Of a stretch of 45,633 nucleotides of DNA, positions 14,505 through 40,807 are shown piece by piece. The position numbers and the translations under genes were made by a program. Numbering within the stretch: the first letter of the stretch is position 1; every line of letters starts with the position of its first letter. The notes below the pieces were generated by a model. That model did no database searches. It was given only the letters and a program-made list of their open reading frames with translations, and had not been told where the DNA came from. Origin of the DNA: Collimonas silvisoli (GTDB lineage: Bacteria > Pseudomonadota > Gammaproteobacteria > Burkholderiales > Burkholderiaceae_D); contig NZ_JAGQEG010000042.1 in NCBI RefSeq assembly GCF_018305005.1, forward strand, positions 1-45,633, given 5' to 3'.

Positions 14505-15731
<1,227 letters not shown>

Positions 15732-15862: not shown

Positions 15863-18097
15863 TTATTCATCATCATCCCAGCGAAAATCCCCCGCGCTAA
15901 ACACCTTGCCCAGCTTGTTGTATTCGCGCTCGGTCGCTTTCAGTACGTGGCGCTGCGCCACCGCCTGCTGTTCCGCCGCCGCCAGGAACGCGGCGCCGAC
16001 GGCAATGTTGTTGATGCTGCCGCCGCTGAGCGCCGCGCTCTTTGCCAGTAGCGCAAAATCGACGTCGTCGGCCAGCGGCGTCGCCGCCGGGAACGCATTG
16101 CGCCAAAGCTGCAGGCGCTGCTCGCCGCCCGGAAACGGGTATTCGATCATGAACTTGAAGCGGCGCGTGAACGCCTTGTCCATGTTGGCCAACAGATTGG
16201 TCGAGAGAATGACGATGCCGGGATAGGTTTCGATCCGCTGTAACAGGTAGCCGGTTTGCAGGTTGGCGTAGCGGTCGTGCGCGTCCTTGGTTTCGGTGCG
16301 CTTGGAGAACAGGCTTTCGGCTTCGTCGAAAAACAGCACGATGTTCATCGCTTCGGCCTGGTCGAATAGCTGCGCCAGATGCTTCTCGGTTTCGCCGATG
16401 TATTTGCTGACGATATTGGCCAGATCGATCTTGTACAGGCCGAGATTGAGTTCATTGGCGATGATCGACGCCGCCATGGTCTTGCCGGTGCCGGACGGTC
16501 CGTAGAACAGGATGCACAGGTTTTTGCTGTTCTGGTTTTTTGTGTCGAAACCCCAGTTCTCGATCACCTGATGCCGTTGCTGGGCGTATTGCAACACCTC
16601 CTGCAGCCATTGCCGCGTCTCGTCGGGCAGCACGATATCGGAAAACCGATGCGGAGTTTTGACTTCCCGCGCGACCATCATCTGCTCCCGGTTGCTCTGC
16701 TCGCGGCAGGCGTCGAACAGCAACGCGTCGGCGCTCGCCTGGTCCGGATTGAGGATTTTCCGACCGGCGGCATCCTTGATCGCCATCACGATCTGTTCTT
16801 CGGTAAACAGGTAGTTGTTGACCAGCTTGTCCAGCATCGCCGCCGTCAGGACGATGCCGCAGGCGGCGCCGTGACGTTGCCAGATCCGCATCCGCAACCG
16901 GCTGTCGGGCACGCTAATTTTGATCAGGACCGACGCCACGTCGTGTCGGGTGTAGCGGTACGCCAGATCGGACAGGCGCCGCGCCGGGCCGTTCAGTACC
17001 GCCAGGTAGCGCTGGCTTTCGAGCAGGGTATGGAACACATCTTCCAGCAGATCGTCGGCGGCGTCCTGCGCGCCGAGCCACTGGCAATGCAGTAGCACGC
17101 ATACCCGGTTGCACAACAAGGCGTCGCGGCACAGCAGGCGCAGACGCAGCAGCAGGGTCGCGCGATTTTTATGGCTGGAAAGATAGGCTTGCCAGATTTC
17201 CCTGCCGTCCAGCGCCACGCAGCGCATCTGCATTTGCTCGAACGCGGCGGCGCACAGGCTGCGTTCCAGCGCCAGGTCCGGACCCTGCAATTGCAATACA
17301 TAGCCCGACGCCTTGGCGCCGGCGTTGCCGCTTTCCAGGCCGCATTGGTCGATGAAGCGCGACAACTGCTGCAGAACCTGTTCGTCCACCAGATGATCGG
17401 CCATGGCCAGCGTGCTGTCGACCGGCTCCAGCGGCTGCGCCAGACGCAATTGCGGCGCCGCTTTTGCCAGCAGATAGACGGCAATCGCCGGGCTTAACTG
17501 AATCGAGCCTTCCAGCCCTGCAAGCCGGGTGTTCGGCGCCAGCTCGATCAACTCCCAGTAACGCAGGGTGGCGTCGGCCATCAGGCATTGCTGCAGCGTC
17601 AAGCGGGCGGCGACCGAGCCGCCCAGAGCCGCCGCCAGACCGCTCAGGTCGACCCAGTTTCCCTGCGGATCGGAGGCCCCGGCGGCTGCCCCGCCGAGGG
17701 CGCGCAGGATGGCGCCGTAACGCGGTTCGATTTCAGCCAGCAAGCCGAACAACATGCACGCCTGGTCTTGCCGGCTTAATTTGAATAGCGCCGCCAGATG
17801 GATCCACGGAATAAAAACCTGCGCCTCCACGGTGGCGGCGATGCGCGTCTGCATTGCCTGCCACTGGACCTCCTGGGCCGCGTCCAGTTGGGCGATTTGC
17901 TGCTGAAGTTGCGACGGCGACGGCTGGCTGCCGCTGGCTTGCCGGTACAGGCTATCGAGCTTGTCGTCGCCATCGGCGGCGGAATCGGCGCCCGGCTGGC
18001 GCGCCAGCAGTGCGCGTTCGATCATGCTTTCGCCGAGCGCACGCAGGTCCTGCAAGAAGGCAGAATTGTCGGAATAGGCGGCGTTAGGACTGTCCAT
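15863..18097 (-). CDS. AAA+ ATPase, Afp15/PVC15-like
   Basis: A 744-aa ATPase that is a near-universal part of eCIS loci. The N-terminal 480 residues or so are helical and have no motif I recognise. The AAA+ domain follows: Walker A GPSGTGKT at about 533-540, Walker B IVLFFDEAE at about 586-594, sensor-1 LSTN at about 631-634, and arginine fingers in TRRFKF near 644-649. By family it is cytoplasmic and thought to act in particle assembly or cargo loading; its exact job is unknown. AAGGA lies 9 nt before the ATG. It is 12 bp downstream of the hydroxylase-like gene, so it is in the same operon. Confidence 0.93.
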   Translation of the reverse strand: MDSPNAAYSDNSAFLQDLRALGESMIERALLARQPGADSAADGDDKLDSLYRQASGSQPSPSQLQQQIAQLDAAQEVQWQAMQTRIAATVEAQVFIPWIHLAALFKLSRQDQACMLFGLLAEIEPRYGAILRALGGAAAGASDPQGNWVDLSGLAAALGGSVAARLTLQQCLMADATLRYWELIELAPNTRLAGLEGSIQLSPAIAVYLLAKAAPQLRLAQPLEPVDSTLAMADHLVDEQVLQQLSRFIDQCGLESGNAGAKASGYVLQLQGPDLALERSLCAAAFEQMQMRCVALDGREIWQAYLSSHKNRATLLLRLRLLCRDALLCNRVCVLLHCQWLGAQDAADDLLEDVFHTLLESQRYLAVLNGPARRLSDLAYRYTRHDVASVLIKISVPDSRLRMRIWQRHGAACGIVLTAAMLDKLVNNYLFTEEQIVMAIKDAAGRKILNPDQASADALLFDACREQSNREQMMVAREVKTPHRFSDIVLPDETRQWLQEVLQYAQQRHQVIENWGFDTKNQNSKNLCILFYGPSGTGKTMAASIIANELNLGLYKIDLANIVSKYIGETEKHLAQLFDQAEAMNIVLFFDEAESLFSKRTETKDAHDRYANLQTGYLLQRIETYPGIVILSTNLLANMDKAFTRRFKFMIEYPFPGGEQRLQLWRNAFPAATPLADDVDFALLAKSAALSGGSINNIAVGAAFLAAAEQQAVAQRHVLKATEREYNKLGKVFSAGDFRWDDDE

Positions 18098-18109: not shown

Positions 18110-18592
18110 TTATGGTTTCGCAAAATCGACCAGTAGCACCAGACGATCCGCATGCCCCCGGTTCCACGCCTCATGTTCGACCGTATCGTCGAAAATCAGG
18201 CATTCCCCCGGTATCCAGTGCCGCACTTCGGCGCCCACCCTGATGCCGCATTGCGCCGAGCTGCGCAAGGCCAGATGCAGGCGCAGGACCTGATCGGTGT
18301 AGCCGACATGCGGCGTAATCTCGGTGCCCGGCGCCAGCCGCGAAAAACCGGCGGTCACCAGCCCGGGAACGGCTTGCAGCAGCGCCACCGTCCGCGGACA
18401 GAAGATGCAGTTCTCCATGATCCGCTGCCGCATCAATACTAGTCCGTAGACATCCCAGCCGCGGTTATAAATACTTTTTTCCGGCCATGCATCGAACTCC
18501 GCTCCCGGCAGGGAAAGACATTCGTCCAGAACGACTTGCCAGTGCCGCTCAAGGTCTTGGGTAAAACTGAAGTTGGCGCGGGGGAAAAACAT
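18110..18592 (-). CDS. Aspartyl/asparaginyl beta-hydroxylase-like protein
   Basis: A 160-aa protein matching the AspH (Asp_Arg_Hydrox) fold. ITPHVGYTDQVLRLHLAL supplies His95 and Arg104-x-His106. HWIPGECLIFDDTVEHEAW supplies His140, and RLVLLVDF ends the fold with Arg150. Family members are Fe(II)/2-oxoglutarate dioxygenases that hydroxylate Asp/Asn side chains in proteins; the two His residues bind iron and the Arg binds 2OG. I chose the ATG at 18592 because AGGAG lies 8 nt upstream; a start at 18685 would overlap the previous gene deeply. It sits between the AAA+ ATPase and two other putative dioxygenases, so a protein substrate within the particle is a fair guess. Confidence 0.8.
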   Translation of the reverse strand: MFFPRANFSFTQDLERHWQVVLDECLSLPGAEFDAWPEKSIYNRGWDVYGLVLMRQRIMENCIFCPRTVALLQAVPGLVTAGFSRLAPGTEITPHVGYTDQVLRLHLALRSSAQCGIRVGAEVRHWIPGECLIFDDTVEHEAWNRGHADRLVLLVDFAKP

Positions 18593-18611
18593 CGCGGTGT
18601 CTCCTATGCAT

Positions 18612-19367
18612 TCACCAGAATAATTGCCATTGCCCATCCAGCCAAGCGCCATGGCCTTGCAGGGTGATGCGGTACTGCTGCTCATGAAAAGGCAGGCCGC
18701 GCGCCTGATGGAAGAAATCCCCTGAATGGACGAATAGTCCGCCAGTCCGATAAGCGACGCACCGGCTGGCCGTGCGCCGCAGCAACTGCAGTTTCCCGCC
18801 TTCGTCGATCCGCTGCATGTGCTCAGCCGTCAGCGGCCATATTTTCATGCCGGCTCCGCCTTGCGGCATCGCTATCGCCAGCGTGAAGGAGATCGTCGGC
18901 GCGGCCGGCAAGCCGATCGCCAGATGCGCCGTATCGACATGAATCGGATTGCCGGGAAAGCCGTCGGCGTCCCGGCGCCGAAACCATTCTTCATGCGTGA
19001 GGTCATGCCGGTCCGACGCCTCGAAAGCTGGATGCGCTGCAAAGATATGAAAGCCGGGCAGCGCCGCGCCCGGATAAAATCCGACCGTTTGCCGCAGATG
19101 TCCGCGCAGTGCGGTCAGCAGCGCGTCATACACTTCGGCAAAATTCTCCAGCAAAAACGGATTGTATTGGCGCGCCAGCCGCCGGTACGGTCGCGCCGGG
19201 TTGGCGACGATGTCGTAATAGTTGGTCGCCCCCAGCGTATAAAACGGAAAATCCCGATGGCGCGGCAGCCAGAACGCCTCGACATCGAGCAGGCGCTGCA
19301 CGATGTCGTCGCACTGCGCCGGCGACAAGACCGGATCGTGAAATTCCTGTACGCGAGACACATTCAT
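18612..19367 (-). CDS. Putative Fe(II)/2OG dioxygenase, paralogue A
   Basis: A 251-aa protein with a plausible double-stranded-beta-helix triad: IHVDTAHLAI (His143-x-Asp145), LFVHSGDFFHQARG (His214 or His220) and QYRITLQGHGAWLDG (Arg233 for 2OG binding). It shares several blocks with the next gene upstream: PGFHI..AHPAF versus PGFHI..PHPAF, HSG...HQA, RITLQGH and a C-terminal YW or FW. No exact family name is recognised. The ATG at 19367 or a TTG at 19379 could be the start; both overlap or abut the upstream stop at 19373, indicating coupling. No signal peptide. The substrate is unknown; a component of the eCIS is the parsimonious inference. Confidence 0.6.
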   Translation of the reverse strand: MNVSRVQEFHDPVLSPAQCDDIVQRLLDVEAFWLPRHRDFPFYTLGATNYYDIVANPARPYRRLARQYNPFLLENFAEVYDALLTALRGHLRQTVGFYPGAALPGFHIFAAHPAFEASDRHDLTHEEWFRRRDADGFPGNPIHVDTAHLAIGLPAAPTISFTLAIAMPQGGAGMKIWPLTAEHMQRIDEGGKLQLLRRTASRCVAYRTGGLFVHSGDFFHQARGLPFHEQQYRITLQGHGAWLDGQWQLFW

Positions 19368-24000: not shown

Positions 24001-24729
24001 CAGCAATCCCATGAACTGCCCGCGCGGCGCGTCGAATTCCAGATAGTAGTCGGCGCTGTTGTTGCCATTGCTGCCCGTCATGCCTTCCCGTTTGGCGCTG
24101 ATGCTGGCGTAATCGGTAAACAGTTTCGCGCCGCGAAAGTCGGGCGGCGAAGCCGGCAGGTTCGGATTGACGCCCGAGCCTTCGGTGACAAAATTGACCG
24201 ACCCCACGCTGGAGCCGACATAACGTCGCTCATTGCGCCCCGATTTGTAGGTCAGGCTGTTGACGCCGCCCTGCGTCGTCAACGAAATCACCGCCAGCAC
24301 GATATACAGACCGGGCTGGTCGAGATTGCGCAGCGCCTTGATTTCCGGTTGCTGCACGATGCGCTTGTAACCGGCGGTGCCGGTGACATCGCTATAGTCG
24401 GCAAAGACCTCGTGGTAATTGATGGTGACGAAATAGGTGGCGCCCGGATCCAGGTCCTTGAGCGGGACGACCGCCGGTTGCAGCAAAATGATTTGCCGGC
24501 CCAGCGCATCGATCGCCATGCCGCGCGCCACTTCCAGTTGCGTCGCCGCGCCGCCGTCGGAAGCGGTCGGCATCGACACTTCCAGCCCCTGCGCAATGCC
24601 ATAGATGTATAAGCCGGTATTGTTGGCCGCCAGCATATCCATTTGATATTGCTGCTCGCAACGGAAATCGTCGGTCAGCAGCGCTTCACCGGTGAAATAA
24701 TTCGGACGTTCGACTTTTAAATTACGCAT
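21040..24729 (-). CDS. Large tail-fibre protein (Afp13/PVC13-position)
   Basis: A 1229-aa fibre, the likely receptor-binding protein of the particle. The N-terminus (PNYFTGEALLTDDFRCEQQY) shares a module with the 260-aa protein encoded just upstream and probably docks to the baseplate. The shaft contains fibre-type motifs such as NFGVGTDHPIANLQI, VGIGLTSGTPQAALDVNG and NVGILDTNPIASLSV, and four copies of a beta-module (separate entry). The last 330 residues match the 315-aa protein encoded next. Between them lies a Pro/Ser linker (SSPSPPPPQ). Its ATG at 24729 has no clear Shine-Dalgarno, so it may be translated by coupling from the gene ending 12 bp upstream. Target cells cannot be inferred. 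Confidence 0.8.
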   Translation of the reverse strand: MRNLKVERPNYFTGEALLTDDFRCEQQYQMDMLAANNTGLYIYGIAQGLEVSMPTASDGGAATQLEVARGMAIDALGRQIILLQPAVVPLKDLDPGATYFVTINYHEVFADYSDVTGTAGYKRIVQQPEIKALRNLDQPGLYIVLAVISLTTQGGVNSLTYKSGRNERRYVGSSVGSVNFVTEGSGVNPNLPASPPDFRGAKLFTDYASISAKREGMTGSNGNNSADYYLEFDAPRGQFMGLLTTRSNFGVGTDHPIANLQIDAVTFKGKGTISWKNQLVTFTDGPSPFLQVGDILISDPSVGQGAAQRRIVTSIVQLGTQVMVDAAFSPVVSTSGSGYTYIRSTLARFSVTSDTSLLQVNVDGSIGLGKQASVSGGTGSAGPNALTITADRRVGIGLTSGTPQAALDVNGQILATSLISSGAIKAQSFEGNGSKLEGMAMLSYWTKETPGAAASKLYYNSGNVGILDTNPIASLSVGGGHAFIGHGVISSVSNNIVVGNQTTFQDQIMAGDRIAIGTLIEQRATVAVKPTSNTELTLQTQFEVPVIQSPYSYVPQGGSETTGGGTVTSNGTAITGVGTTFTDLNAGDILCIPRFIPTVNAEQGRTVTAVASDTALTLASAYAGTVAALSYSVQAPGGTKTAGAGTLTSDGTAVTGSGTAFLSTVKAGDILFTNPVNANSGLPQKWTVKSIESQTQLTLQPPGNGKTLDFAAATSVYMVTTGLLGQFKANDNNAIVAPDVEAAQAPAMLIVTNSGIANPNTVAINVDRADVDHDCALQVVGDLKVSDGGVDFEDVTADTVWAQRSLTVGGTALAAGGAVMTVAPPASANPLLVVTPTNVLLGQASSTADAMLAVAGNIQASANITAAGNVQGTNLVGDLLGARTVYTQSNLPISVVAASDGLVMAIVGQPGAKCFGVLSGLTENASGVPTSSMFAIATIASFVTGSGKSSGSTDIPIPGSFTMPVRNGETWTLSLTTATDFLPAAPVSFWWVPLGASTQSSTLFSSPSPPPPQAMATDAAIPVASDERVGEGMEPADAASLPANPASVMMDALARVQEQIRAGGMSYRSAQVTQQTINERVSDLAQIFGNATDMSADENDRAQFIRDLQKIVCSPAAPGQPADKQVSEQDVQDLIATFGKVSGHDFTQEQRALLTAGVQALMQINDSAASRNDLNLIKKNIGLFIDNVQQVLGKQFSSGDQRLLTRALVRLVGDGRQNAGAVDAANDVM
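22579..23922 (-). repeat. Four copies of a roughly 70-residue beta-module in the fibre shaft
   Basis: Modules lie at about residues 270-345, 487-553, 565-632 and 644-717. Each reads G(T/V)(I/L/V)(T/S)S..., then GT.F....AGDIL or VGDIL, then an R/K-x-V-x-SI turn and a (T/Q)LTL strand. Examples are GTTFTDLNAGDILCI and GTAFLSTVKAGDILFT. The third and fourth copies are the closest pair. Confidence 0.65.
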
Positions 24730-24741
24730 ATTTTTTTGAAA

Positions 24742-25524
24742 TCAATTTTCGATGGCGATCCAGGACAGATCGACGGTTGATGCTTTCGGCGCGGCGGTTT
24801 GCACCGACGTCAGCGTGATGACGCATTGCGCCAGCTCCGCAGCGACTGCCGTGGCATAGGGTGTGCCGCCGGTGACAGACACCATGACCGTCGGCGTCTT
24901 GCTGAAAGCAGCCTCTTTCGACGCCAGGTAACTCACCGTCACGGAAACGCTTGCCCCCGCCGTTTGCAAGTTGGCGGTCGAGACCGACACGCTGCCCTGC
25001 AAGGCGTGCATTTTCTGCAACCCCGTATCGGTCGGGGGCAGCACCGCGGGCAGGCGGCTGGTAACGGGAACCCGGCTATCGGTCACCTTCTGGATGACGT
25101 TATTGGCATCGAGCGTCACCGTTGCCAGGACGACGCCGTTGTCCGGCACGCTGGCTGCGGCTGCGACCTGCGCCGCGGCATTCACTACCGGCGTGGTGGC
25201 TTTGCTGGTGTCGGGATAGAACGCGTACACCAGGAAGGGATTGGTTGGCGCAGCAGGAACCGTCACCGGATTGCCGCTGCCGCCGGGCAAGATCAGGAAA
25301 TTGCCGGCTGCGTCGAACGCCACCCCTTGGCTGACCGACAGCGCATTGTCCTGCTGCGTCACGAGCATGCCGTTGAGGACTCCCGGGGTGAATAAATACT
25401 GATTTTGCAGCCAGAACCAGTTACTGAAATAGTTCTGTTCCAGCGTCATATAGTCCGACGTCAGAAACATGCCGGTCTGATAGTTCAGATGTTGCGCGAC
25501 ATCGGATGAAATTTCATTGCTCAT
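24742..25524 (-). CDS. Fibre-associated/baseplate-fibre adaptor protein
   Basis: A 260-aa protein whose N-terminus (LNYQTGMFLTSDYMTLEQNY, then LSVSQGVAFDAAGNFLILPG) parallels the first 90 residues of the large fibre (YFTGEALLTDDF, LEVARGMAIDALGRQIIL). The rest is beta-rich with no cysteines. The shared module suggests both proteins attach at the same baseplate position. It could be a short fibre or an adaptor between the gpI-like protein and the long fibre. Its ATG overlaps the stop of the gpI-like gene (ATGA at 25524-25521). I recognise no named family. Confidence 0.6.
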   Translation of the reverse strand: MSNEISSDVAQHLNYQTGMFLTSDYMTLEQNYFSNWFWLQNQYLFTPGVLNGMLVTQQDNALSVSQGVAFDAAGNFLILPGGSGNPVTVPAAPTNPFLVYAFYPDTSKATTPVVNAAAQVAAAASVPDNGVVLATVTLDANNVIQKVTDSRVPVTSRLPAVLPPTDTGLQKMHALQGSVSVSTANLQTAGASVSVTVSYLASKEAAFSKTPTVMVSVTGGTPYATAVAAELAQCVITLTSVQTAAPKASTVDLSWIAIEN

Positions 25525-31854: not shown

Positions 31855-32451
31855 TCAGTTGATATCAATCATCGCCGCCTGCAATTTCATGCTCCGCGCC
31901 CCGCTCAACTGCATCCCGTCGGCGGATAGTTCCGCCTTGACGCTGCCGGTGGTGTTCTGCACCACAACCTGCGCGCCGCTGATGGTCAGCTTGCCCTTGG
32001 CGCTGATGTTGAGGTCGCCCTGGCTGCTGATGCTGATTTTGTTATTGGCGGTGTCGATTTCGATCTGGTTGTTCTTGTTGTCGACGATGGTGATCTTTCC
32101 CTGGCTGGAGTCGTCCAGCATGATGGTCTTGCCGAGCTTGGTCTTGATGATCCGCACGTCCTGCTGCCTGGCGCTCTCGACCGGCGGCTTTTGCACGCCG
32201 TTCCACAAGAAACCCAGCACGTAGGGCTTGCTGGGGTCGCCGTCGGCAAACGCCAGCAGCGCCGAATCGCCGACCTGGGGCAGGAAAAATGCGCCGTAGT
32301 TCTGGCCGGCAAAAAAACTCACGATCTGCACCCAATCCGAGTCGATTTTCTGCCCGCTCAAAGAAAATGTGACGCGGATGCGCCCCAGTCCTTTCTCGTC
32401 CTTGGTATCGCTGACCGTGCCAATCGTCACGCCGTGGGAGAGTTCGCTCAT
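31855..32451 (-). CDS. Baseplate spike, gpV/gp5-like (half of a split VgrG)
   Basis: A 198-aa protein. An OB-fold (GTVSDTKDEKGLGRIRVTFSL, then SDWVQIVSFFAGQNYGAFFLPQVGDSALLAF) is followed by a repetitive beta-helix needle (KITIVDNKNNQIEIDTANNK, ISISSQGDLNISAKGKLTIS). Together these are the C-terminal gp5/VgrG spike. Its ATG overlaps the stop of the hub gene (ATGA at 32451-32448). In Afp and PVC this spike is fused to the hub as Afp8/PVC8; here the two halves are separate but translationally coupled. It should trimerise and carry the PAAR tip. Confidence 0.93.
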   Translation of the reverse strand: MSELSHGVTIGTVSDTKDEKGLGRIRVTFSLSGQKIDSDWVQIVSFFAGQNYGAFFLPQVGDSALLAFADGDPSKPYVLGFLWNGVQKPPVESARQQDVRIIKTKLGKTIMLDDSSQGKITIVDNKNNQIEIDTANNKISISSQGDLNISAKGKLTISGAQVVVQNTTGSVKAELSADGMQLSGARSMKLQAAMIDIN

Positions 32452-33494
32452 ATGCCCGTCCTTCTTATCTTGATATCGGTTTTATAGCCGCTGCTGTCGT
32501 CATAGCTGTGGGTGCTGGAGGTCACGTAATACGTCCCGTCGAATCGCTGGCTCAAGCCGGTGAGCCTGACGTTGACGCCGGCCACCAGTTGGCTGTCGCC
32601 GACCAGGCTGGCGCCGCCTTCGATAAAGTCCTTCAGATTGCTCTGGAACTGGGCGTCCGCCACGGCTTGCAACGCGCTCGGATCACTGATGTTGGGACAC
32701 TCCAGCGTAATGCCGGAACTGGGAAAATCGTCCGCCGCCTGATAGCCGGTTTCAGTTCCCCCCATCTTGTCCTGCGGCGTGCCGGAAGAAGCCACGGCCT
32801 TGATGATCTGATTGGTTTCGACGTCGTAACCGACCGCCGTCACCGTCTCGCCCATGGTCGGCAATTTCAAGTTCAGGTTCACGTCGTTCACATCGCGCGG
32901 AAATTGCAGGGTCTTGACCGGGCTGTTGCCCTCGGCCGAGGGGCGGAACACCAGCGTCGTGTCGGCCATCAGCAGTTCGTAATCGAGTTGCTTGCAACGG
33001 CCCATCAGGAATTTGTAATTGGACGTATTGTTTTGCAGCACGTATTTATTGATCGTGCTCGGACTGCCGGCCAGCTTGACCGACAGGCCGGACGCTTTCG
33101 CAACGTCGGTGACGATTTCATTATCGTTGAGCATTTCATAGGTCTTGATGCGGGTGCCGAACTTGAGCCGGTACATGCGGTCGAAACCGCGGATCGTGGC
33201 CGACGATGAAGTGGTGCTGAAGTTCGGTTCGATCGCCGTGATATCGCCGCTGATCAATTGCTCCAGGCTGTCCAGCCCGAGAAAAATGGTGATCTCGTCG
33301 CCCGGTTTGAACACATCCAGATCGACGTCCTGCCAGCCGCCGCTGGACGACATCATATTCAGGCTGAAGCTGAACATGGCCGGGACGTTGATCTCATCCT
33401 GAACCCGCACGTTATGGATCGCCGCCACCACCGAGATCGGCAGCGCCGACCTGTTTTTCAGTATCCTGAAGGCGCCGGTCTGGACGTTAAGCAT
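32448..33494 (-). CDS. Hub protein, phage late control gpD/gp27-like (other half of split VgrG)
   Basis: A 348-aa protein. It has the gpD/gp27 hub pattern: PAMFSFSLNMMSS, FKPGDEITIFLGL, DRMYRLKFGTRIKTY, and NYKFLMGRCKQLDYELLMAD, which is the hallmark LxxRxxxLGY-like block. AVGYDVETNQI follows in the C-terminal half. I chose the ATG at 33494, with AAAGGA 7 nt upstream; it overlaps the LysM gene stop by 8 bp. The upstream in-frame start at 33527 lacks an RBS. The product should form the trimeric hub between tube and spike, with the next gene supplying the needle. Confidence 0.92.
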   Translation of the reverse strand: MLNVQTGAFRILKNRSALPISVVAAIHNVRVQDEINVPAMFSFSLNMMSSSGGWQDVDLDVFKPGDEITIFLGLDSLEQLISGDITAIEPNFSTTSSSATIRGFDRMYRLKFGTRIKTYEMLNDNEIVTDVAKASGLSVKLAGSPSTINKYVLQNNTSNYKFLMGRCKQLDYELLMADTTLVFRPSAEGNSPVKTLQFPRDVNDVNLNLKLPTMGETVTAVGYDVETNQIIKAVASSGTPQDKMGGTETGYQAADDFPSSGITLECPNISDPSALQAVADAQFQSNLKDFIEGGASLVGDSQLVAGVNVRLTGLSQRFDGTYYVTSSTHSYDDSSGYKTDIKIRRTGI

Positions 33495-34131
33495 TGACCA
33501 ATCCTTTCGCGCCGTCGGCGTGCACATCGGGAATCACCAGCGTGCGGCCGATGTCTTTGCGCTGCGGAAAATTGAGCGGGTCGTAGATGTCGTTGTATTC
33601 GGCGATCAGACGCCATTGATTGGGATCGCCCAGCGCATCCTGCGCAATCAGGTACAAGCGGTCGCTTTGCTTTACCTGCCACAACTGGCGGCAGTTGAAA
33701 TAGCCGCGCGATTGCAGATCCTCTTCCTCGGTCAACACCGATTTGAACGTCACCGACAGCTCGGCCCGCACCGGAATGCCGGAGCTGAGAAACATCGTGA
33801 ACTTCTGGTCGAGCTTGACGATGATGCCGGTATACAGCGGCCCGGCCCAGGTGAAGACCACTACCGGCGGTTCCTTGCGCACATTGGTGCCGACGCTAGG
33901 CACGGTCAGCGCGGCGATCTTGTTGGTCTTGCTGCGCACGTCAATCTGGCTTTCGTAGGTGTCAAAGAAAAGCGATACCGTCAGATCGTCGTTATTGACC
34001 CGCTGAAACTGGATGTTGGAACCCTCTCCCTGCACCATGACGGTTTTGTTCAGCGACAGTTCGATCGGGTTGTACATCACGGGAATTTCTTCGCGCGTTT
34101 GCTGCACAACGATTTTTGCCATCTCCAGCAT
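33487..34131 (-). CDS. LysM-domain hub-tube adaptor (Afp7 equivalent)
   Basis: A 214-aa protein. The N-terminal 150 residues are a tube- or hub-like beta fold (IPVMYNPIELSLNKT, VSLFFDTYE, VVFTWAGPLYTGIIVKL). The C-terminal segment is a LysM-type domain (WQVKQSDRLYLIAQDALGDPNQWRLIAEYNDIYDP). This arrangement matches Afp7/PVC7 and T4 gp53-like or P2 gpX-like adaptors that join tube to hub and baseplate. The ATG at 34131 shares its A with the upstream TGA (TGATG), and AGGAG is 7 nt upstream. Confidence 0.93.
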   Translation of the reverse strand: MLEMAKIVVQQTREEIPVMYNPIELSLNKTVMVQGEGSNIQFQRVNNDDLTVSLFFDTYESQIDVRSKTNKIAALTVPSVGTNVRKEPPVVVFTWAGPLYTGIIVKLDQKFTMFLSSGIPVRAELSVTFKSVLTEEEDLQSRGYFNCRQLWQVKQSDRLYLIAQDALGDPNQWRLIAEYNDIYDPLNFPQRKDIGRTLVIPDVHADGAKGLVNA

Positions 34132-35348
34132 CAGTCTGCTCCTCGTCGATAACGTTCAGTGGCGCTGTGCCGCTCTACCGCGACATAAATGCGATCGGCC
34201 AGCGCATGCAGCATTTGCGGCGACAACAGCGAGTCCGTCATCACGCGGCGCAACTGCTCCTGGGTGTGGCTGCTATGCACGATCTCGTGCAGCACCCTGG
34301 TTTGCACTTTCCGTTCCAGGCTTTGCACCTGCGTCTGAATCCGGGTGTCAATCCGATTTTGAAGATCGGTCCCGGCCGCGCGTCCGGCTTCGCGCAGGAT
34401 GCGCGTGGCCGGATGCGGTGCGTGATAGTGCGCCAACACCGTCGGCGCAACTGCGGGCGACGCTGCGGCATGGCCGGCCGCGGCGGCAGCGATCTCCTCC
34501 AGCCGCGCAGCGATCCGCTGCAAGCCTGGCGAGCCGGCTGCCCGCGGCGCGGTGATTCCGGCATCTGCATCCCGCCGCGCAATCGTCGCAGCGGTGACTC
34601 GGAAAGCCCGCTCGCCTGCCAGGGATTGCCGCCGGACCGGAAACTGCCGGGATTGAAGCACTGACATTCTCGTTAGAAATGCCATGTTTTTTCCTATGAC
34701 GGACCGTGACTTCACATTCTGAAATGCCGGTAACTGCGGCTGTAGCTGCACCGCATGAATAAATCGCTGCGCATGCCGCGGCCGCATCGAACCGTTTTGT
34801 CGCGCACCGGTTCCCGCATTCGGCCACCCTGGACCTGGCGTTTCGCCGTCCGATTTAACCTGGATGCATGCCGCTGCCGACCTGCTCCGCCGCCAAAACG
34901 TCTGCGCACTGCGTGCATGCACACGCGACAGATCCCGCTTGCCTGCCAGAATCTGCAACATGCGTTCGATGCGCTCCTGCACGCCCGGCGACGGCTGCCG
35001 CCCAGCCTGCACGATCCGATGCAAAAGCCGGACCTGCTGCGGGGTAACCTGTAACGACAGACGCAGCAGCATCGGGCTGCGGGCCATGGCGGACGACGAT
35101 TCCTGCAGCTTGCGGCCGCGATCGCGCGCCATCGCGCGCATCCACTGTTGCAACAGATGCACACGCTGGATGTAATAGGAAATGCGGGTAGTCGGCGGCG
35201 CCTTGGCGCGCATCAGAAACGCAAGATGAGCGCCGGCCCCGGACATGCCGGACTGCAAAGCGGGTGCGCCGCGCCCGGCGTGAAAGCGCTGCGCGCCGCT
35301 TGCGCAAAGCAACTGCATGGCCTTGCCGCTGACTGGCGCCATCGCCAT
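34131..35348 (-). CDS. Unrecognised 405-aa basic protein between tube 2 and LysM
   Basis: No family is recognised. The protein is very basic and mostly helical, rich in Arg, Ala and Gln. The C-terminal 100 residues or so form probable long helices (LQNRIDTRIQTQVQSLERKV, then LRRVMTDSLLSPQMLHALADRIYVA) and end ERHSATERYRRGAD. The ATG at 35348 overlaps the stop of the tube gene (TAATG) and its stop overlaps the LysM ATG (TGATG). It is therefore locked into the structural core. In contractile phages this slot, after the tail-assembly chaperones and before the LysM gene, holds the tape measure, and no other tape-measure candidate is visible here. That role is a hypothesis. Confidence 0.6.
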   Translation of the reverse strand: MAMAPVSGKAMQLLCASGAQRFHAGRGAPALQSGMSGAGAHLAFLMRAKAPPTTRISYYIQRVHLLQQWMRAMARDRGRKLQESSSAMARSPMLLRLSLQVTPQQVRLLHRIVQAGRQPSPGVQERIERMLQILAGKRDLSRVHARSAQTFWRRSRSAAACIQVKSDGETPGPGWPNAGTGARQNGSMRPRHAQRFIHAVQLQPQLPAFQNVKSRSVIGKNMAFLTRMSVLQSRQFPVRRQSLAGERAFRVTAATIARRDADAGITAPRAAGSPGLQRIAARLEEIAAAAAGHAAASPAVAPTVLAHYHAPHPATRILREAGRAAGTDLQNRIDTRIQTQVQSLERKVQTRVLHEIVHSSHTQEQLRRVMTDSLLSPQMLHALADRIYVAVERHSATERYRRGAD

Positions 35349-35860
35349 TACAGCAATCCCTTGGCGACGGAATAGGCGGCGCTGCCGAGGCTCTTTTTGA
35401 TGCCTTCATGAGCCAGCGTAAAACTCTGGCTGGCGACCAGATTCTGGCTCGCGTCCAGGCTCGGCCCTTGCCACTGCACCGGCCACGCATTATAGAAATC
35501 CCACCAGACGCTGGGAATGCCCTGATCGTCCAGAATGAAAATCGAACCGTTCTTACGCTTGATCGCGCCCGAAAGCGTCGATTGATACCAGAGCCACATT
35601 GGATCGAGGAAGGTGATCCCGGCCTTTAACACCAGGTCGCTGTAGGTGATTTGTCCCGGCAATTTGTACTCGGTGTCATTGACGCCGCCCTGGCGCACGG
35701 TTTTTACCTCGGTTTTGGATTCCAGTCCATCCACCGACATAAAGCCGCCGACCAGGATGCCTTCCACTTCCACAAAAAAATTGTAGGACTTGAACGGATC
35801 GATGCGCAGTCCCAGTTGGCGCTGGGCAAAGCCGACTCCTGCATTGACGCCTATTACCAT
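35348..35860 (-). CDS. Tail tube protein 2 (gp19-like, Afp5 position)
   Basis: A 170-aa tube protein of the gp19/T4-like tube family. The hallmark blocks are DPFKSYNFFVEVEGILVGGFMSVDGL, SKTEVKTVRQGGVNDTEYKLPGQITYSDLVLKAGI, and IPSVWWDFYNAWPVQW. eCIS loci usually encode two or more tube paralogues; this one lies near the hub end and may form the first tube ring, like Afp5. AGGAGG sits 5 nt before the ATG at 35860. It overlaps the next gene by one base. Confidence 0.92.
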   Translation of the reverse strand: MVIGVNAGVGFAQRQLGLRIDPFKSYNFFVEVEGILVGGFMSVDGLESKTEVKTVRQGGVNDTEYKLPGQITYSDLVLKAGITFLDPMWLWYQSTLSGAIKRKNGSIFILDDQGIPSVWWDFYNAWPVQWQGPSLDASQNLVASQSFTLAHEGIKKSLGSAAYSVAKGLL

Positions 35861-35913
35861 TGTATCCTCCTATGCCGCCATTCCGATCTGCCTGGGACGG
35901 AGTACCGCTGCGC

Positions 35914-36120
35914 TCAACTCCTTCCCGCAAGTTCTAAGCTACTCCCGTTTTTTTGCCGTTCGTCCGTATTCATCACTTTGTTGATTTTGCTGATTTCCTC
36001 GCACCAGCGGCGCCGCTCGGCATGTTCCATTGCCAGGATCTCCCCGTAAGACCAGTGAAAGTGATAGGCGACGAAGGCTATCTCTGCGTAAAGCTGGTCG
36101 GCAACTGCGGGGAGTCCGGC
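35914..36120 (-). CDS. -1 frame extension of the tail-assembly chaperone (DUF6760-like)
   Basis: This is the 3' part of a predicted fusion protein. After the slip at 36126-36120 the -1 frame continues for 68 residues: AGLPAVADQLYAEIAFVAYH, then FHWSYGEILAMEHAERRRW, ending ELAGRS. The YHFHWSYGEI...ERRRW block looks like the small DUF6760-type proteins found beside eCIS tail-assembly genes. The -1 frame has no ATG, GTG or TTG ahead of this block, so it cannot be made independently. The combined product would be 182 aa (114 + 68). It parallels lambda gpGT, which binds tube and tape measure during assembly. Confidence 0.75.
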   Translation of the reverse strand, partial: AGLPAVADQLYAEIAFVAYHFHWSYGEILAMEHAERRRWCEEISKINKVMNTDERQKNGSSLELAGRS

Positions 36121-36461
36121 TTTCCCAATCCGCCCTGCGCCTCCATCTGCAGCACGTTGTCTTCGCCGCCGACTTGGTTGATCTTGTTGTACAGGCTCTG
36201 CAAGAAGGAAAAATCCGCCGAAAATAATTCTTCGACCACTTTGGTGGTGATCATGTCCAGACTGCCGAGCCGGACGATGACGCGCGACAGGACGATCACG
36301 ATCAGATAGGCCGGATTGCTTTGCACCCGATGGTCCTTCAACGGCAAAATCTCGTCCCCGGCGGTGGCCAGCCGCATCACGCCTGTGCGATGCAATGTGC
36401 CGTCGCTGTCGCGATAGCCGATCGGCAGGGTGAATTCCTTTTCCATACTGATGACGTGCAT
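36078..36461 (-). CDS. Phage tail-assembly chaperone-like protein (gpG-like, 0 frame)
   Basis: A 127-aa protein. MEKEFTLPIGYRDSDGTLHRTGVMRL, then ILPLKDHRVQSNPAYLIVIVLSR and MITTKVVEELFSADFSFLQSLYNKIN fit small tail-assembly proteins of contractile tails (gpG/gpE-like). AAGGAG lies 8 nt upstream of the ATG at 36461, so an open-frame start 24 codons earlier is rejected. Codons 113-114 are GGA AAG within an in-frame GGGAAAG heptamer. Most ribosomes would end at the TAG at 36078-36080; a fraction should shift to make the long form. It lies between tube 1 and tube 2. Confidence 0.8.
   Translation of the reverse strand: MHVISMEKEFTLPIGYRDSDGTLHRTGVMRLATAGDEILPLKDHRVQSNPAYLIVIVLSRVIVRLGSLDMITTKVVEELFSADFSFLQSLYNKINQVGGEDNVLQMEAQGGLGKPDSPQLPTSFTQR
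36120..36126 (-). promoter_or_regulatory. Predicted -1 programmed frameshift site GGGAAAG
   Basis: In the 0 frame it reads G GGA AAG, which fits X_XXY_YYZ. It is the same heptamer used at the lambda G-T junction. The 0-frame stop comes 14 codons later, and the -1 frame stays open for 68 codons beyond the slip. No obvious strong downstream stem was found by eye. Confidence 0.75.
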
Positions 36462-36529
36462 GCTGATTACTCCTTGATTACTCATATCGACCTTGTAGGC
36501 TGGAGCACCATCCCAGCCTGCCCCTTCGT

Positions 36530-36976
36530 TCACGACACGCGTGTCATGTATTCCATCGTCAATTCAAACGTCTCGACCATCACTTCGCTGCTCGCGGCGT
36601 TGAGGCCGGTGCTTTCGTATTTGCTGGCCCAGGCGTTGATGATGTTCCAGCGGGCCTTGTCGACGCCGCCGGCGTCCATCAGAATCAGCGACACGTTCTT
36701 TTGCGCACCCTTGGCGCCGGAGCCTTGCGACGAGACCAGTTGATACCAGTTATACAGATCCATCGAGTCGGTCAGGCCCTTTTTCAGGCTTAGCTTGCCG
36801 TAGCTGGTCAAGCCCGAAAACGAGCGCTTGTACACCGGATCGGTGCCTTCCCGATATTCCACCGTTTCCACCGTGCTGTCGGGCACACTTGCCTCGGAAA
36901 ACGCGGCAATCTGGATGCCCGCTATTTCCACCCGAAAGCGAAAACCGCGGTAGGGATCGGTTAATGTCGTTGCCAT
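36530..36976 (-). CDS. Tail tube protein 1 (gp19-like, Afp1 equivalent)
   Basis: A 148-aa tube protein. TDPYRGFRFRVEIAGIQIAAFSEASV, then STVETVEYREGTDPVYKRSFSGLTSYGKLSLKKGL and SLILMDAGGVDKARWNIINAW are standard gp19 tube blocks. The C-terminus reads ETFELTMEYMTRV. It is the probable main tube subunit, since it directly follows the sheath gene as Afp1/PVC1 do in other loci. GGAG lies 7 nt before the ATG at 36976. The gap to the sheath gene (138 bp) holds no gene. Confidence 0.93.
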   Translation of the reverse strand: MATTLTDPYRGFRFRVEIAGIQIAAFSEASVPDSTVETVEYREGTDPVYKRSFSGLTSYGKLSLKKGLTDSMDLYNWYQLVSSQGSGAKGAQKNVSLILMDAGGVDKARWNIINAWASKYESTGLNAASSEVMVETFELTMEYMTRVS

Positions 36977-37114
36977 AGTTGTTCTCCGCAATCAGTCGTC
37001 ATTAAGTTGGTCATTCCATTTCCAAATCAAATGCGAACGCGGCGCGGGCCTGCAGGCATTGCGCCAGTCAGGCAGGCGCCGACAACCAAGTGCACGTTTG
37101 ATGTGGACATGGAA

Positions 37115-38758
37115 TCAGTTTCCGGAGTCCGGCGCGCTGGTCTTCTGCGTCATGCGAATAATGACAAATTCGGCCGGGTACACCGCCGCCAGGCCGATGT
37201 CGATATACAACTGCCCCAGCATGCGGGTTTCGGGCGGGTTATTGGACGCGTCGCACGTCACGAAAAACGCTTCCGAAGCAGTGGCGCCGAACAGGCCGCC
37301 CTGTTGCCACAAAGTCGTCAGGAAAGCGCTGATGTCGCGCGTGACCGACGACCACAGTTGCTGGTCGTTAGGCTCGAACACCACCCACTGCAAGCTTTGT
37401 TTCAGGCTCTGCTCGACATAGATGAACAGGCGGCGCACGGCGATGTAGGTCCATTCGGTATTGAGCGCGAGCGTGCGCGCGCCCCAGATCACGTTGCCGT
37501 AATTGATGAAATTACGGATCGCGTTGATGCCTTCCTGGTTGAGTTGATCCTGATCGGCGTCGGTGATCGATTGATCCAGCAAGACCGCCGTCATCAACGC
37601 ACCGTCGCTGACCCCGGCCGGCGACTTGTAGACGCCGACATTGGTGTCGGTATACGCGTAGCGTCCCAGCACCGGCCCCGACGGCGGGATCGGCACATTG
37701 GCATTGGCAATCGGGTTATAGATATAGACCCAGGGATAATAAATCGCGCCGAAGTCGGAATTGAGGGCATTGGGATTGCCGTTGGGAGCGGTGCCCTGCC
37801 CCGATTTGAACGACAGCATATCCTGAAGGTTGAGGCCGAACGGCGGATCGATGACATAAAACAGGCTGCGCAATTTCTCGCAAAACCCCAACCCCAGATT
37901 GATCAGTTGGCCTTGCAGCGACTGCGACGGTTTTCCGCCGTTATCGGTGGCGGTCACCGTGTCCGGCACCGATAGCAGGCTGAGCCCCTGCACCTTGGCC
38001 AGGAGATCGGTAGCCGCATTCAGGTCATAGACCGGAGCGGTTCCTCCGGTAAACAAGGTCGGGCCGCTGTTAGGCGGACGCGTGCCTGTGGTCGCGCTGG
38101 CGCTGACCGGCAGGCGCACGAACATCGAGTTGCTGTTGATCTTGGCCGCCAGCGGGCTGGGTTGATCGGCGATGCTGGTCAAGCTGTTGGCGGTAAAGCC
38201 GTTGAACTGTTCCAGCACGTAATACTGCTTGCTGTTGATGGTTTTCGGCGACAGGTTGTTTTCCAGTACGTATTGCTGCAACAACTGATTCGGCATCGTG
38301 GCGGTGGTCGTTGCGATCACGGCGGCGTCGACCAGAATGGTGACGTTGAATACCGGCGTGGGCGGCGGCGACTTCACCGTCGGATCGGTCGCGCTGCCGT
38401 TGCTGATCATGATGTTCAACACATTGCCCCAGGTTCCGGGCGTGACTGCGCTGAAGACCAGGGGCGAGGCCTTGCCGGTCGCAGCCTTGGCGTTGGCGCT
38501 GTCGGTGGCGCGCACGATGTAGCAGGCGGTGCCGCCTTCGTTGAAAAACTCGTAGACTGACCACGACACCATCGCATACCAGGCAAGGTTGCCGAACTGG
38601 CGCTGGTACGCATTCCAGCTCGTGATCAGCGTCGGTTGCATGAACGGACCGGTTTCGGTGACGCCGACGAAGGCCGCGGTCGAGGTGGATGCGCCTTGAA
38701 TGCTGCGGGTGCTCGGCACTTCCTGGATGTAAATGCCGGGATGATTATAGGTGGCCAA
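37115..38758 (-). CDS. Contractile tail sheath protein
   Basis: A 547-aa sheath protein and the only one in the operon. The N-terminus MATYNHPGIYIQEVPSTRSIQGASTSTAAFVG is the canonical sheath start. WSVYEFFNEGGTACYIVR follows. The C-terminal block with SVTRDISAFLTTLWQQGGLFG, MLGQLYIDIGLAAVYPAEFVIIRM is the handshake domain that links subunits. The start codon is TTG (38758-38756), with AAGGA 10 nt upstream. A sheath is the most abundant protein of the particle, so the weak start is odd and may limit output relative to tube. Afp has three sheath paralogues; this locus has one. Confidence 0.95.
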   Translation of the reverse strand: MATYNHPGIYIQEVPSTRSIQGASTSTAAFVGVTETGPFMQPTLITSWNAYQRQFGNLAWYAMVSWSVYEFFNEGGTACYIVRATDSANAKAATGKASPLVFSAVTPGTWGNVLNIMISNGSATDPTVKSPPPTPVFNVTILVDAAVIATTTATMPNQLLQQYVLENNLSPKTINSKQYYVLEQFNGFTANSLTSIADQPSPLAAKINSNSMFVRLPVSASATTGTRPPNSGPTLFTGGTAPVYDLNAATDLLAKVQGLSLLSVPDTVTATDNGGKPSQSLQGQLINLGLGFCEKLRSLFYVIDPPFGLNLQDMLSFKSGQGTAPNGNPNALNSDFGAIYYPWVYIYNPIANANVPIPPSGPVLGRYAYTDTNVGVYKSPAGVSDGALMTAVLLDQSITDADQDQLNQEGINAIRNFINYGNVIWGARTLALNTEWTYIAVRRLFIYVEQSLKQSLQWVVFEPNDQQLWSSVTRDISAFLTTLWQQGGLFGATASEAFFVTCDASNNPPETRMLGQLYIDIGLAAVYPAEFVIIRMTQKTSAPDSGN

Positions 38759-38778: not shown

Positions 38779-39363
38779 TTAACTTATTTCAATGTCGACG
38801 CACTGCGTGGTACCCGGCTGCACACTTAACTGCTTCCGCACGTTTGCAAATCCAGCCTTGCTAAAATTCAGGTCGACGGCGGTGTGCGCCGCCAGTTTGC
38901 CGGTCAGGGCCAGCGCGTAACGGCCGTCGTAACGTCCATAATCGGATGACCGGGTGGTTTGACGCTTTGGCCTGGCGCGTACATTCTGATAGCTGGCGGC
39001 GACGTCGACGCCGGGCACGGGTCGACGCTGTGCGTCGACCTGGAAAATTTGCCCGCGAATCAGGGTTGTCCCTTCCGGATAGGGATAGAGCGGGCTTGGA
39101 GCCAATGTGCAGGCGATGATGGCGTCAGCCAACGGCTCGCGGAGCGGCACTTGCAATGCAATCCGTTGATCGAAGAAGACATGATTCTCGCAAAGGATCG
39201 TCAATTGATACGCGCCGTCGTCAAGGTCGCTAAACGCGTAAAAGGCCTGTGCCTTGCTCAGCGGCAGATACGGCTTGTCGTTGAGCAAAAACCGTACCGC
39301 GACGCCCACCGCAGGCTGCAGACTGAAGCCGTCGATCAGTTGCACCACCGCGCTGAGCTTCAC
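38779..39363 (-). CDS. Ig/carboxypeptidase-regulatory-like eCIS protein
   Basis: A 194-aa protein with two beta-sandwich-like segments. VKLSAVVQLIDGFSLQPAVGVAVRF and AFYAFSDLDDGAYQLTILCE look like a carboxypeptidase-regulatory (CNA-B/Ig) domain. A second half with TLIRGQIFQVDAQRRPVPGV and GRYALALTGK is a repeat of the idea. I place the start at the GTG at 39363, which overlaps the TGA of the DUF4255 gene (GTGA). No signal peptide. Similar proteins occur next to DUF4255 genes in eCIS loci and may decorate the sheath, but the role is unknown. Confidence 0.7.
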   Translation of the reverse strand: MKLSAVVQLIDGFSLQPAVGVAVRFLLNDKPYLPLSKAQAFYAFSDLDDGAYQLTILCENHVFFDQRIALQVPLREPLADAIIACTLAPSPLYPYPEGTTLIRGQIFQVDAQRRPVPGVDVAASYQNVRARPKRQTTRSSDYGRYDGRYALALTGKLAAHTAVDLNFSKAGFANVRKQLSVQPGTTQCVDIEIS

Positions 39364-39989
39364 GTTGCGCCCTTGTGCAGAACGCCGTCGAGCGGCCGCT
39401 GCTCCGCGTGCAAATCGCCCTGGATGACCATATTGCTTTGCCATGCATCGGTGGACGGAATCCGCACCGGCGACAACATATAGAGCTTGGTGAGTTTGTA
39501 GGCTTTGTTCGGAAACCCGCTCCAGATATTGTGCAGCGTCGCGATCGAGCTGGTGTCGGGCACGATCGGAATCGCCTCATTGCCGCTTTGCTTCAATACC
39601 GGATGCAGCCATTCTCCGGACAGCGCAGGTATTTCGTGAAACAGCCTGACCAGCTTGTCCACCAGCACCAGTTCCAGCTCGGCGGAACGGGCGTAAGGCA
39701 CCATCATGTACAGCAGATCGGCCACCAGTGGCGGCGGCGTCACCGCCAGCGAATTCCGTGCATCATCGGCGCCCTGCCGACGAGTCAGGGTCGGCGGCAA
39801 ATTGCGCAGGTAGGGATTGATTTCCAGGTTATAAAGATACAGCGACAGCCGGGTCTCGCCCTGGCTGTCGATCTCCGCGGGTGAGTCGAACACCACCGCC
39901 GACTCGGGCCGCAATTCCGCAATATGATCGCGAATCAACGATCGCAACGATTCGCTGACGCAGCGCAGTATCTGACCGTTATCGACCAT
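39360..39989 (-). CDS. DUF4255 tail-terminator-like protein (Afp16 equivalent)
   Basis: A 209-aa DUF4255 protein. The N-terminus MVDNGQILRCVSESLRSLI, then LSLYLYNLEINPYLRNLPP, VTPPPLVADLLYMMVPYA, ELVLVDKLVRLFHEIP, and SGFPNKAYKLTKLYMLSPVRI are diagnostic. In Afp, Afp16 caps tube and sheath at the distal end and sets particle length, like T4 gp3/gp15. The ATG at 39989 is chosen for the family start; the open frame extends upstream but overlaps the previous gene in an unlikely way. It is coupled to the next gene by GTGA. Confidence 0.92.
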   Translation of the reverse strand: MVDNGQILRCVSESLRSLIRDHIAELRPESAVVFDSPAEIDSQGETRLSLYLYNLEINPYLRNLPPTLTRRQGADDARNSLAVTPPPLVADLLYMMVPYARSAELELVLVDKLVRLFHEIPALSGEWLHPVLKQSGNEAIPIVPDTSSIATLHNIWSGFPNKAYKLTKLYMLSPVRIPSTDAWQSNMVIQGDLHAEQRPLDGVLHKGAT

Positions 39990-40003
39990 TTCCGGATGCT
40001 TCC

Positions 40004-40807
40004 TCAGAGTGTGAAAACGGTGTCGGTCTGACTCACGAGTTGCGGCTGCCGGTTGCCGACATGCGCATACAGGCTGACATTGCTGTCGCAAGTCGTCTTG
40101 AGGTAAATGTAAGGCAAATCGATCGGCTCCCAGATAATATAAGCCAGCAAGAAGAAATCCAGGGTCTCGGCCGAACTTGTATTTTTTGCGGTCTCGAATA
40201 CGATTTGGCGGCTGTTGTAAGTCAGGGAAGCCAGCGGCACGGAACCTTTGGCACTGGCCATCCGGATACCCCCCGCTTCGGAAAATATCGGCCCCAGACT
40301 CCAGGTCGCCAGGCCCAGGCCCTTCTTGGTCGAGAGTTCCAGGCTGATCCTGTTGCCGGGAGCGGCGCCCTGGACGGTAACCAGTACGCCACGGGTATTG
40401 CTTTCCGGATTGCGCAGCACCGCGCTGATGCGTCCGTTGCGCCACTCCATCCCGCGCTGCGCCCCGAAAAACGCCATTACCGTAGCGTCGTTATTGAGTG
40501 TGCAATAGCCCTGCAAATAATCGACGCCGGGCGTCACGCGCAGGAACAGGGTCATCGTAAACGCGCCCAGCGAACTGTTGTCGCTGGAGGTGCGGATGGC
40601 AAGCATTCCTTCGTTGAATTCGATTTTCTGGATACAGGATTGCGGCTGCCCCGAGGCGTTCTGGGCTGCCACGGTAAAGCCCATGCTGTCGCCCGATAGC
40701 GCCCCCAGGGACCAGCTCGCACCCAACGTTGTAAACGTGAAGTTGATATTGGAATTGGGCGCGACATTATTGAATATCAACACAACCGGCATTAGCTCTT
40801 GAATCAT
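40004..40807 (-). CDS. Unrecognised beta-rich protein, eCIS operon head (267 aa)
   Basis: A 267-aa protein of no family I recognise. It starts MIQELMPVVLIFNNVAPNSN and is rich in Ser, Thr, Asn, Gly and short beta-strand-like stretches (TFTTLGASWSLGALS, SLGAFTMTLFLRVTPG). Three cysteines occur. Two tandem halves may be present, since the WSLG motif appears in both (ASWSLGALS near residue 32, ATWSLGPIF near 168). AAGG lies 6 nt before the ATG. It ends 14 bp before the DUF4255 gene, so it is co-transcribed with the structural core. It could be a surface decoration or a cargo. Confidence 0.65.
   Translation of the reverse strand: MIQELMPVVLIFNNVAPNSNINFTFTTLGASWSLGALSGDSMGFTVAAQNASGQPQSCIQKIEFNEGMLAIRTSSDNSSLGAFTMTLFLRVTPGVDYLQGYCTLNNDATVMAFFGAQRGMEWRNGRISAVLRNPESNTRGVLVTVQGAAPGNRISLELSTKKGLGLATWSLGPIFSEAGGIRMASAKGSVPLASLTYNSRQIVFETAKNTSSAETLDFFLLAYIIWEPIDLPYIYLKTTCDSNVSLYAHVGNRQPQLVSQTDTVFTL

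Follow-up and report, generated by a model that had tools for sequence, protein, structure and literature searches.

Phage lambda G/GT slips at the heptamer G_GGA_AAG, and frameshifting in phage tail assembly chaperones (TACs) has long been known. For the T4-like chaperones, Vladimirov et al. (2022) reportedly argue for a mechanism other than frameshifting. In lambda, both forms contain the G part, which binds the tape measure, and the tail-tube protein is bound by the T part; neither form stays in the virion, and G_GGA_AAG is described as very prone to shifting in E. coli (PMC5009743). We analyzed a stretch of 45,633 nucleotides from Collimonas silvisoli (contig NZ_JAGQEG010000042.1), hereafter the window, the minus strand of which carries a TAC gene of an extracellular contractile injection system (eCIS) followed by an extension in the −1 frame. 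Judged from sequence, this gene very probably undergoes a lambda-type −1 frameshift that would yield a two-form tail assembly chaperone. As in lambda, a TAC would be followed at low level by a −1 extension, and the heptamer is the same; unlike lambda, the gene sits in a cell-encoded contractile injection system, and the −1 part belongs to DUF6760 (PF20546). The kind of mechanism is known from lambda G/GT, and what is new here is the eCIS setting, the reach into Archaea, an RNA hairpin, and a proposed role for DUF6760. In the open-licence PMC literature, we found no recognisable report of frameshifting in an eCIS chaperone and no paper holding the word DUF6760.

Other described systems share parts of this layout. 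P2 E/E′ (PF10109/PF06528) resembles it in the contractile tail, the annotated −1 frameshift, and an extension with an FHW..E....W motif, but P2 slips on T_TTT_TTG, and PF10109 matched only two of 54 eCIS TACs. The arrangement could be reconstructed for 11 of 13 P2-type loci, and all 11 had a T-run and a −1 extension. The likeness to Mu gp41/FS-gp41 is weak, with Gp41_Mu matching 10 of the 54 TACs at E ≤ 0.1. The ‘fivetwo’ category of motifs comprises GGGGGAA alone, with about a thousand SEAPHAGES cases (PMC10885494), and this slip site of actinophage chaperones is also that of much of the majority eCIS class described below (PMC10885494, PMC5506516), in which a conserved hairpin is seen as well. 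The HCTV haloarchaeal tailed viruses have G_GGA_AAC and G_GGA_AAG sites, as do haloarchaeal eCIS, but they are viruses and not injection systems, and they use A_AAA_AAC as well (PMC5009743).

The probable frameshift locus in the window and its homologues

The TAC gene (36078..36461, minus strand, as are all window features written with two dots) follows a likely Shine-Dalgarno (SD) sequence read from the letters (AAGGAG, 36470..36475), and its frame-0 open reading frame (ORF) encodes 127 aa from ATG (36461-36459) to TAG (36080-36078). The original prediction, made without database searches and without naming the strand, placed a GGGAAAG heptamer in X_XXY_YYZ phase at codons 112-114, and this was confirmed: codons TTG (36128-36126), GGA (36125-36123), and AAG (36122-36120) contain G_GGA_AAG at 36120..36126, 13 codons before the frame-0 stop. 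After a slip, the −1 extension (35914..36120) would be read from 36120 to 35917 up to TGA (35916-35914), adding 68 residues for a fusion of 182 aa. The claim that this frame is start-less also held, as it is open for 119 codons before 36120 without ATG, GTG, or TTG, and these codons are absent also from the first 60 nt after 36120. The block described as protein-like in the −1 frame proved to be DUF6760 (E 4.6e-21; 75.1 bits against a cut-off of 27), and thus its protein-like character is not due to chance. The sequences directly show this anatomy, its in-phase conservation, the selection on the −1 frame, and the hairpin of the majority class (described below); slipping at this locus and its rate are inferred.

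Among 15 genomes of the genus, five, including that of the window, had a DUF6760 match. The other four congeners (L002-L005) carried GGGAAAG at the same place with different flanking bases, and their frame-0 stop lay 4 codons past the site, compared with 13 in the window. The −1 frame was under purifying selection, with nonsynonymous differences (pN) of 0.03-0.10 against synonymous differences (pS) of 0.38-0.80 for the window and five relatives over 32 codons.

For a wider survey, 121 loci were gathered, of which 117 had a DUF6760 match by a purpose-made profile. Four weak matches (score < 60) were removed to leave 113, and removal of 17 loci with ≥80% identity over 240 nt left 96 nonredundant loci; the sample is not random, as the genome-contig scan took only the best 80 of at least 582 confirmed matches. 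By a mechanical rule, DUF6760 was in the −1 frame relative to the upstream ORF in 113 of the 117 loci. A hexamer (GGGGGA, GGGGGG, or GGGAAA) was found in phase at the junction in 85 of the 96 loci, from both Bacteria and Archaea, while the other phases gave 19 and 6. Any XXXYYYZ or GGGGGAN was in phase in 89 of the 96 loci against a codon-shuffle mean of 34.5, and strict XXXYYYZ alone in 54 against 28.7. No ATG, GTG, or TTG occurred past the hexamer in 51 of the 85 loci; 37 lacked these codons throughout the open DUF6760 frame as far as the anchor, and 14 had one only before or within the hexamer. The conservation in homologues of an in-phase slip site together with a start-less overlap, which the original prediction had proposed to look for, was thus found. 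Its GGGAAAG site holds for the window and its congeners but belongs to a minority among eCIS loci, as 62 of the 85 use GGGGGA or GGGGGG (the G-run class) and 23 use GGGAAA.

The hexamer rule was then fixed, and 46 further loci were collected without a score cut from the phyla of the cyanobacterium L050, the Thermomicrobiales member L049, and the haloarchaeon L060. After removal of 15 redundant or previously seen loci, 29 of the remaining 31 had an in-phase hexamer (other phases, 8 and 0), and 17 of these 29 had no start past the hexamer, the anchor codon aside. On these grounds, DUF6760 is likely to be, as a rule, the frameshift-only C-terminal half of an eCIS-wide two-form chaperone in Bacteria and Archaea, expressed through two interchangeable recoding signals: a G-run site of low strength for which a conserved hairpin compensates, or a strong GGGAAA site that lacks the hairpin. 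By this reading, eCIS of both Bacteria and Archaea would have kept the recoding device of phages, and DUF6760, so far a family without an assigned function in Pfam, would gain a putative role and mode of expression.

Of the 11 loci without a listed hexamer, three had other canonical in-phase sites when inspected by eye (T_TTT_TTA in L081, T_TTT_TTT in L102, and A_AAT_TTT in L086), and L107 had a GTG. In L055 (3977-4030), the G-run is apparently one G short compared with that of L068, a possible assembly error or lost site. The original prediction named homologues with a separate start codon and no slippery heptamer as evidence against it; four of the 96 loci are of this kind, with split halves (L042 at 3970-4030, L028, L066, and L041). 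DUF6760 gave no match in phage records (tblastn) or in viral contigs first scanned with the window extension, and a search of E. coli genomes also gave no match; a viral scan with the TAC as the query yielded 11 loci, which are outside the counts given here. Two viral contigs outside the counts (L113 and L114) carried a divergent DUF6760-like sequence with GGGAAAG in an apparently right phase by eye.

As the original prediction expected, annotation can split or miss the second half of the gene, which frameshift-only expression would explain. In four plasmid records inspected, the DUF6760 coding sequence was annotated from ATA in L012, from an internal TTG in L015, and from ATT in L017, while the plasmid record of L018, whose gene table is said to be incomplete, listed none. 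If the frameshift is real, the gene lists of such eCIS lack one core product.

Putative recoding signals and alternative explanations

The two classes of slip site differed in the RNA downstream. Folding with z < −2 was found in 48 of the 62 G-run loci (median −3.27) compared with 2 of the 23 GGGAAA loci (median +0.28). Fifty-two G-run loci whose site precedes the anchor by 30 nt could be aligned without gaps, and this alignment contained a hairpin past the heptamer with the arms NGGCUACC-C-CCUCG / CGAGG-A-GGUAGCCN. The hairpin comprises 12-15 bp, of which 12 pairs are well kept, the first one 5 nt past the heptamer; each of the three outermost pairs is limited to between 19 and 36 of the 52 loci. 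Of 780 cells, 85.4% were paired, compared with 34-53% when the arms were slid and 81.7% in column shuffles, and double-change cells numbered 39 against 18.4 in shuffles (reached in 0 of 500). As the hairpin region is coding, redrawing synonymous codons is the fairer null, and it gave 63.6% paired (standard deviation 1.2, maximum 66.9, 500 draws) and a mean energy of −10.35 (60 draws) against −21.13 observed. At a valine position in the 3′ arm, 45 of 49 G-run loci use GTA, compared with a background of 12%, and none of 11 loci of the GGGAAA class does; the later loci have GTA for 19 of 22 such valines, and 22 of 25 have the complete set of six core pairs. As GTA followed by G spells a frame-0 TAG, the stop could add to the conservation of this codon.

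The hairpin thus points to an RNA element for which no Rfam family reached its gathering score in the seven loci tested; for the window (35800-36600), the one match was far under its cut-off (HgcF, 15.3 bits against 70). A search with the hairpin model over 55 loci gave 27 matches at E ≤ 1, of which 26 were at the junction and one was elsewhere (L100); L022 was both searched and part of the model. The window gave no match to this model. Neither did 274 whole genomes of its class, a set that held no genome known to match and is thus uninformative.

Of the bacterial GGGAAA loci, 8 of 10 have an SD-like site 8-20 nt upstream of the slip site, compared with 21 of 800 windows placed at other positions of those ORFs; the G-run loci have one in 30 of 62 against 4.0%, and the haloarchaeal GGGAAA loci in 1 of 13. 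A looser early count (13 of 23 and 24 of 62) is superseded by these values. In the G-run loci, part of the count may reflect a protein motif that these loci have in common. In the window, GGAGG (36140..36144) lies 13 nt upstream of the heptamer as a probable slip stimulator. GGGGGA is presumed to be the weaker site because of the imperfect re-pairing of the second tRNA, which is discussed in PMC10885494. These patterns suggest that weak slip sites are accompanied by the hairpin, while strong ones have an SD-like site or neither element. A hairpin in the window itself was also tried as a candidate and was dropped as not significant (z +1.57).

Several observations weigh against the frameshift or its proposed signals. 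Downstream of its heptamer, the window shows no significant RNA structure, by the z value just given, and folding in the GGGAAA class is poorer than in its synonymous null (z +2.4). The ten bacterial GGGAAA loci include close kin, and thus the 8 of 10 with an SD-like site are not independent. In two of five covariation measures, namely the pairs with a double change and the number of pair types, the hairpin exceeded column shuffles only modestly (17 and 38 of 500, respectively), and unconstrained RNAalifold picked a pairing of the G-run with a C-run (−7.64) and not the hairpin, although the named hairpin evaluates lower than that choice (−18.3). Seven of the 96 loci had no in-phase heptamer. 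A start codon after the hexamer was present in 34 of the 85 loci, nine of which have no other than the TTG that encodes the anchor leucine, and likewise in 12 of the 29 later loci, so coupled initiation is possible there. For the protein halves, the TAC gave no profile match to P2 gpE (probability 0.2).

The point about start codons bears on the chief alternative, in which DUF6760 is a separate protein made by translational coupling, with ribosomes restarting at an overlapping and often non-standard codon (AUA, GUG, or CUG) and the G-run acting as the SD sequence. Many junctions indeed read GGGGGAN(N)-ATA/ATG/GTG over the stop, a few loci (L042 and L028) clearly have their own ATG, and in the 30 loci with the stop directly past the heptamer, the overlapping codon was ATA in 19, ATG in 4, GTA in 4, and GTG, TTG, and CTG in 1 each, a distribution that also counts against frameshifting. 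The ATA can be attributed to GAA followed by TAR, yet it also resembles a start. When the stop lay 3 nt past the heptamer, the overlapping codon was ATA in 8, GTA in 7, TTA in 5, CTA in 3, ATG in 3, CTG in 3, and GTG in 2; as it varies in these loci, whose base is left free by GAA, no start codon has been conserved. A conserved AUA start, first suspected in plasmid loci, failed in the same way, as the base before the stop varied once more loci were counted. Coupling is also at odds with the 51 of 85 loci without a start past the hexamer, with a frame-0 stop ≥39 nt past the heptamer in 8 of the 85, and with the loci that have GGGAAA in place of the G-run, or TTTTTT or AAATTTT in individual cases, sequences that hold the same phase without resembling an SD site. 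The conserved hairpin would, moreover, bury the restart site. We regard coupling as improbable.

The remaining alternatives fare worse. Internal initiation at the ATT codon directly before the window heptamer could be driven by GGAGG, which lies 10 nt upstream of the ATT in the −1 frame, but the ATT is absent from L002-L005, L115, and L118, all of which have GGGAAAG, and L115 and L118 retain GGAGG too, making this route very unlikely. A transcript slipping on a homopolymer, in place of the ribosome, would suit the G-runs of 5 to 8 in the majority class; in the window GGGAAAG, however, the longest run is 3, and the phase, hairpin, and SD-like site fit ribosomal slipping, so that we give transcriptional slippage hardly any weight. 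The same holds for a sequencing error or a decayed gene joined by chance, which the apparent loss of one G in L055 would favor and which is contradicted by the four congeners with the same layout, the in-phase hexamer in 85 of 96 loci, and the purifying selection on the −1 frame.

The two protein halves and a proposed model of assembly

The prediction of a lambda-type frameshift in an eCIS TAC gene was supported by the identity of the upstream half and by the neighboring eCIS genes. The TAC family phrog_508 was matched at E ≤ 0.001 by 53 of the 54 aligned TACs, the window protein included (E 2.1e-8), while the window TAC had no Pfam or NCBIfam match. Many eCIS TACs (L044, L077, and others) end in a CPxC zinc-ribbon-like stretch, which the window TAC does not have. 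For the window extension, a Pfam scan to E 1 returned DUF6760 only, and Phage_P2_GpE (PF06528) did not reach its cut-off. Profile comparison nevertheless linked DUF6760 to P2 gpE′ (probability 91.7, E 7.9e-7; 91.0 with a second alignment), with FHW, E, and W positions in common, and both touched phrog_10636 (E 0.0029 and 2.2e-5).

The predicted TAC structure had a mean pLDDT (predicted local distance difference test) of 79, with residues 11-90 above 90 per block of ten and residues 98-127 almost wholly below 50. As the slip site falls within this low-confidence tail, the fusion may have a chaperone core that a flexible linker joins to a helical DUF6760. Among predicted viral proteins, the TAC model matched best an unnamed protein of Bacillus phage BCD7 (E 1.9e-5), followed by T4-like baseplate hub assembly proteins (2.1e-5) and Mu FS-gp41 (7.2e-3); against PDB folds, the best match was YqbN (E 0.62). 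The DUF6760 model had no match among viral models at E ≤ 0.001. Sequence searches of DUF6760 and the TAC against solved chains gave none that was convincing (no match in one search; best E 0.22, 1.2, and 0.038 in the others, the last with a chain labelled sc-apCC-6-DPH-NR). This fits a role outside the finished particle and is weak evidence for it. The eCIS protein Cis6/Afp6/Pvc6 is reported as a spike plug (PMC8894136, PMC12210884); the DUF6760 profiles found no convincing solved chain, in a set whose inclusion of a Cis6 chain was unchecked.

By the frameshift reading, most ribosomes would make the 127-aa TAC, and some would pause at G_GGA_AAG and slip back one base, probably helped by the upstream GGAGG, to make the 182-aa TAC-DUF6760 fusion. 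If the roles follow those in lambda G/GT and P2 E/E′, as we infer, the tape measure would be covered by the short form, the long form, made rarely, would use its DUF6760 part to deliver tube subunits to the tape measure, and both forms would depart before the particle is complete. The original prediction had the long form recruit the tape measure, which does not hold for lambda, where the tape measure is bound through the G part of both forms and the tube protein through T (PMC5009743). If the frameshift occurs, heterologous eCIS expression would depend on the frameshifting rate of the host, and work that moves an eCIS into another host would have to preserve the slip site and hairpin, both of which codon recoding would erase.

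Scanning of the larger minus-strand ORFs with Pfam, in which several matched no family, identified sheath, tube, baseplate, PAAR, AAA+ ATPase, Pvc16-like, and eCIS_core genes together, a combination that identifies the cluster as an eCIS; a gp25-like gene was also present. The TAC gene lies directly after one gp19-like tube gene (36530..36991, PF06841 E 1.6e-39) and before a second (35348..35860, PF06841 E 6.6e-38). The cluster further encodes a sheath protein (37115..38758, PF17482 E 2.9e-15 and PF04984 E 2e-7), a CIS_tube protein (33487..34131, PF19266 E 1.3e-19), a spike/baseplate V OB-domain protein (31855..32451, PF04717 E 5.4e-23), a Pvc16_N protein (39360..40445, PF14065 E 8.2e-33), an AAA+ ATPase with a WHD domain (15863..18097, PF00004 E 5.1e-26 and PF22977), and an eCIS_core domain protein (14505..15731, PF13699 E 7.3e-09). 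The gene for an aspartyl/asparaginyl beta-hydroxylase (18110-18685) adjoins that of the AAA+ ATPase, and the adjacent ORFs 21040-24729 and 24742-25524 each match the CIS13 family below its cut-off. The genome of the window also has a P2-type E/E′ pair with a T-run at the junction (L124, G000:C110, about 700-830), and thus two frameshifted tail chaperones may coexist in one genome.
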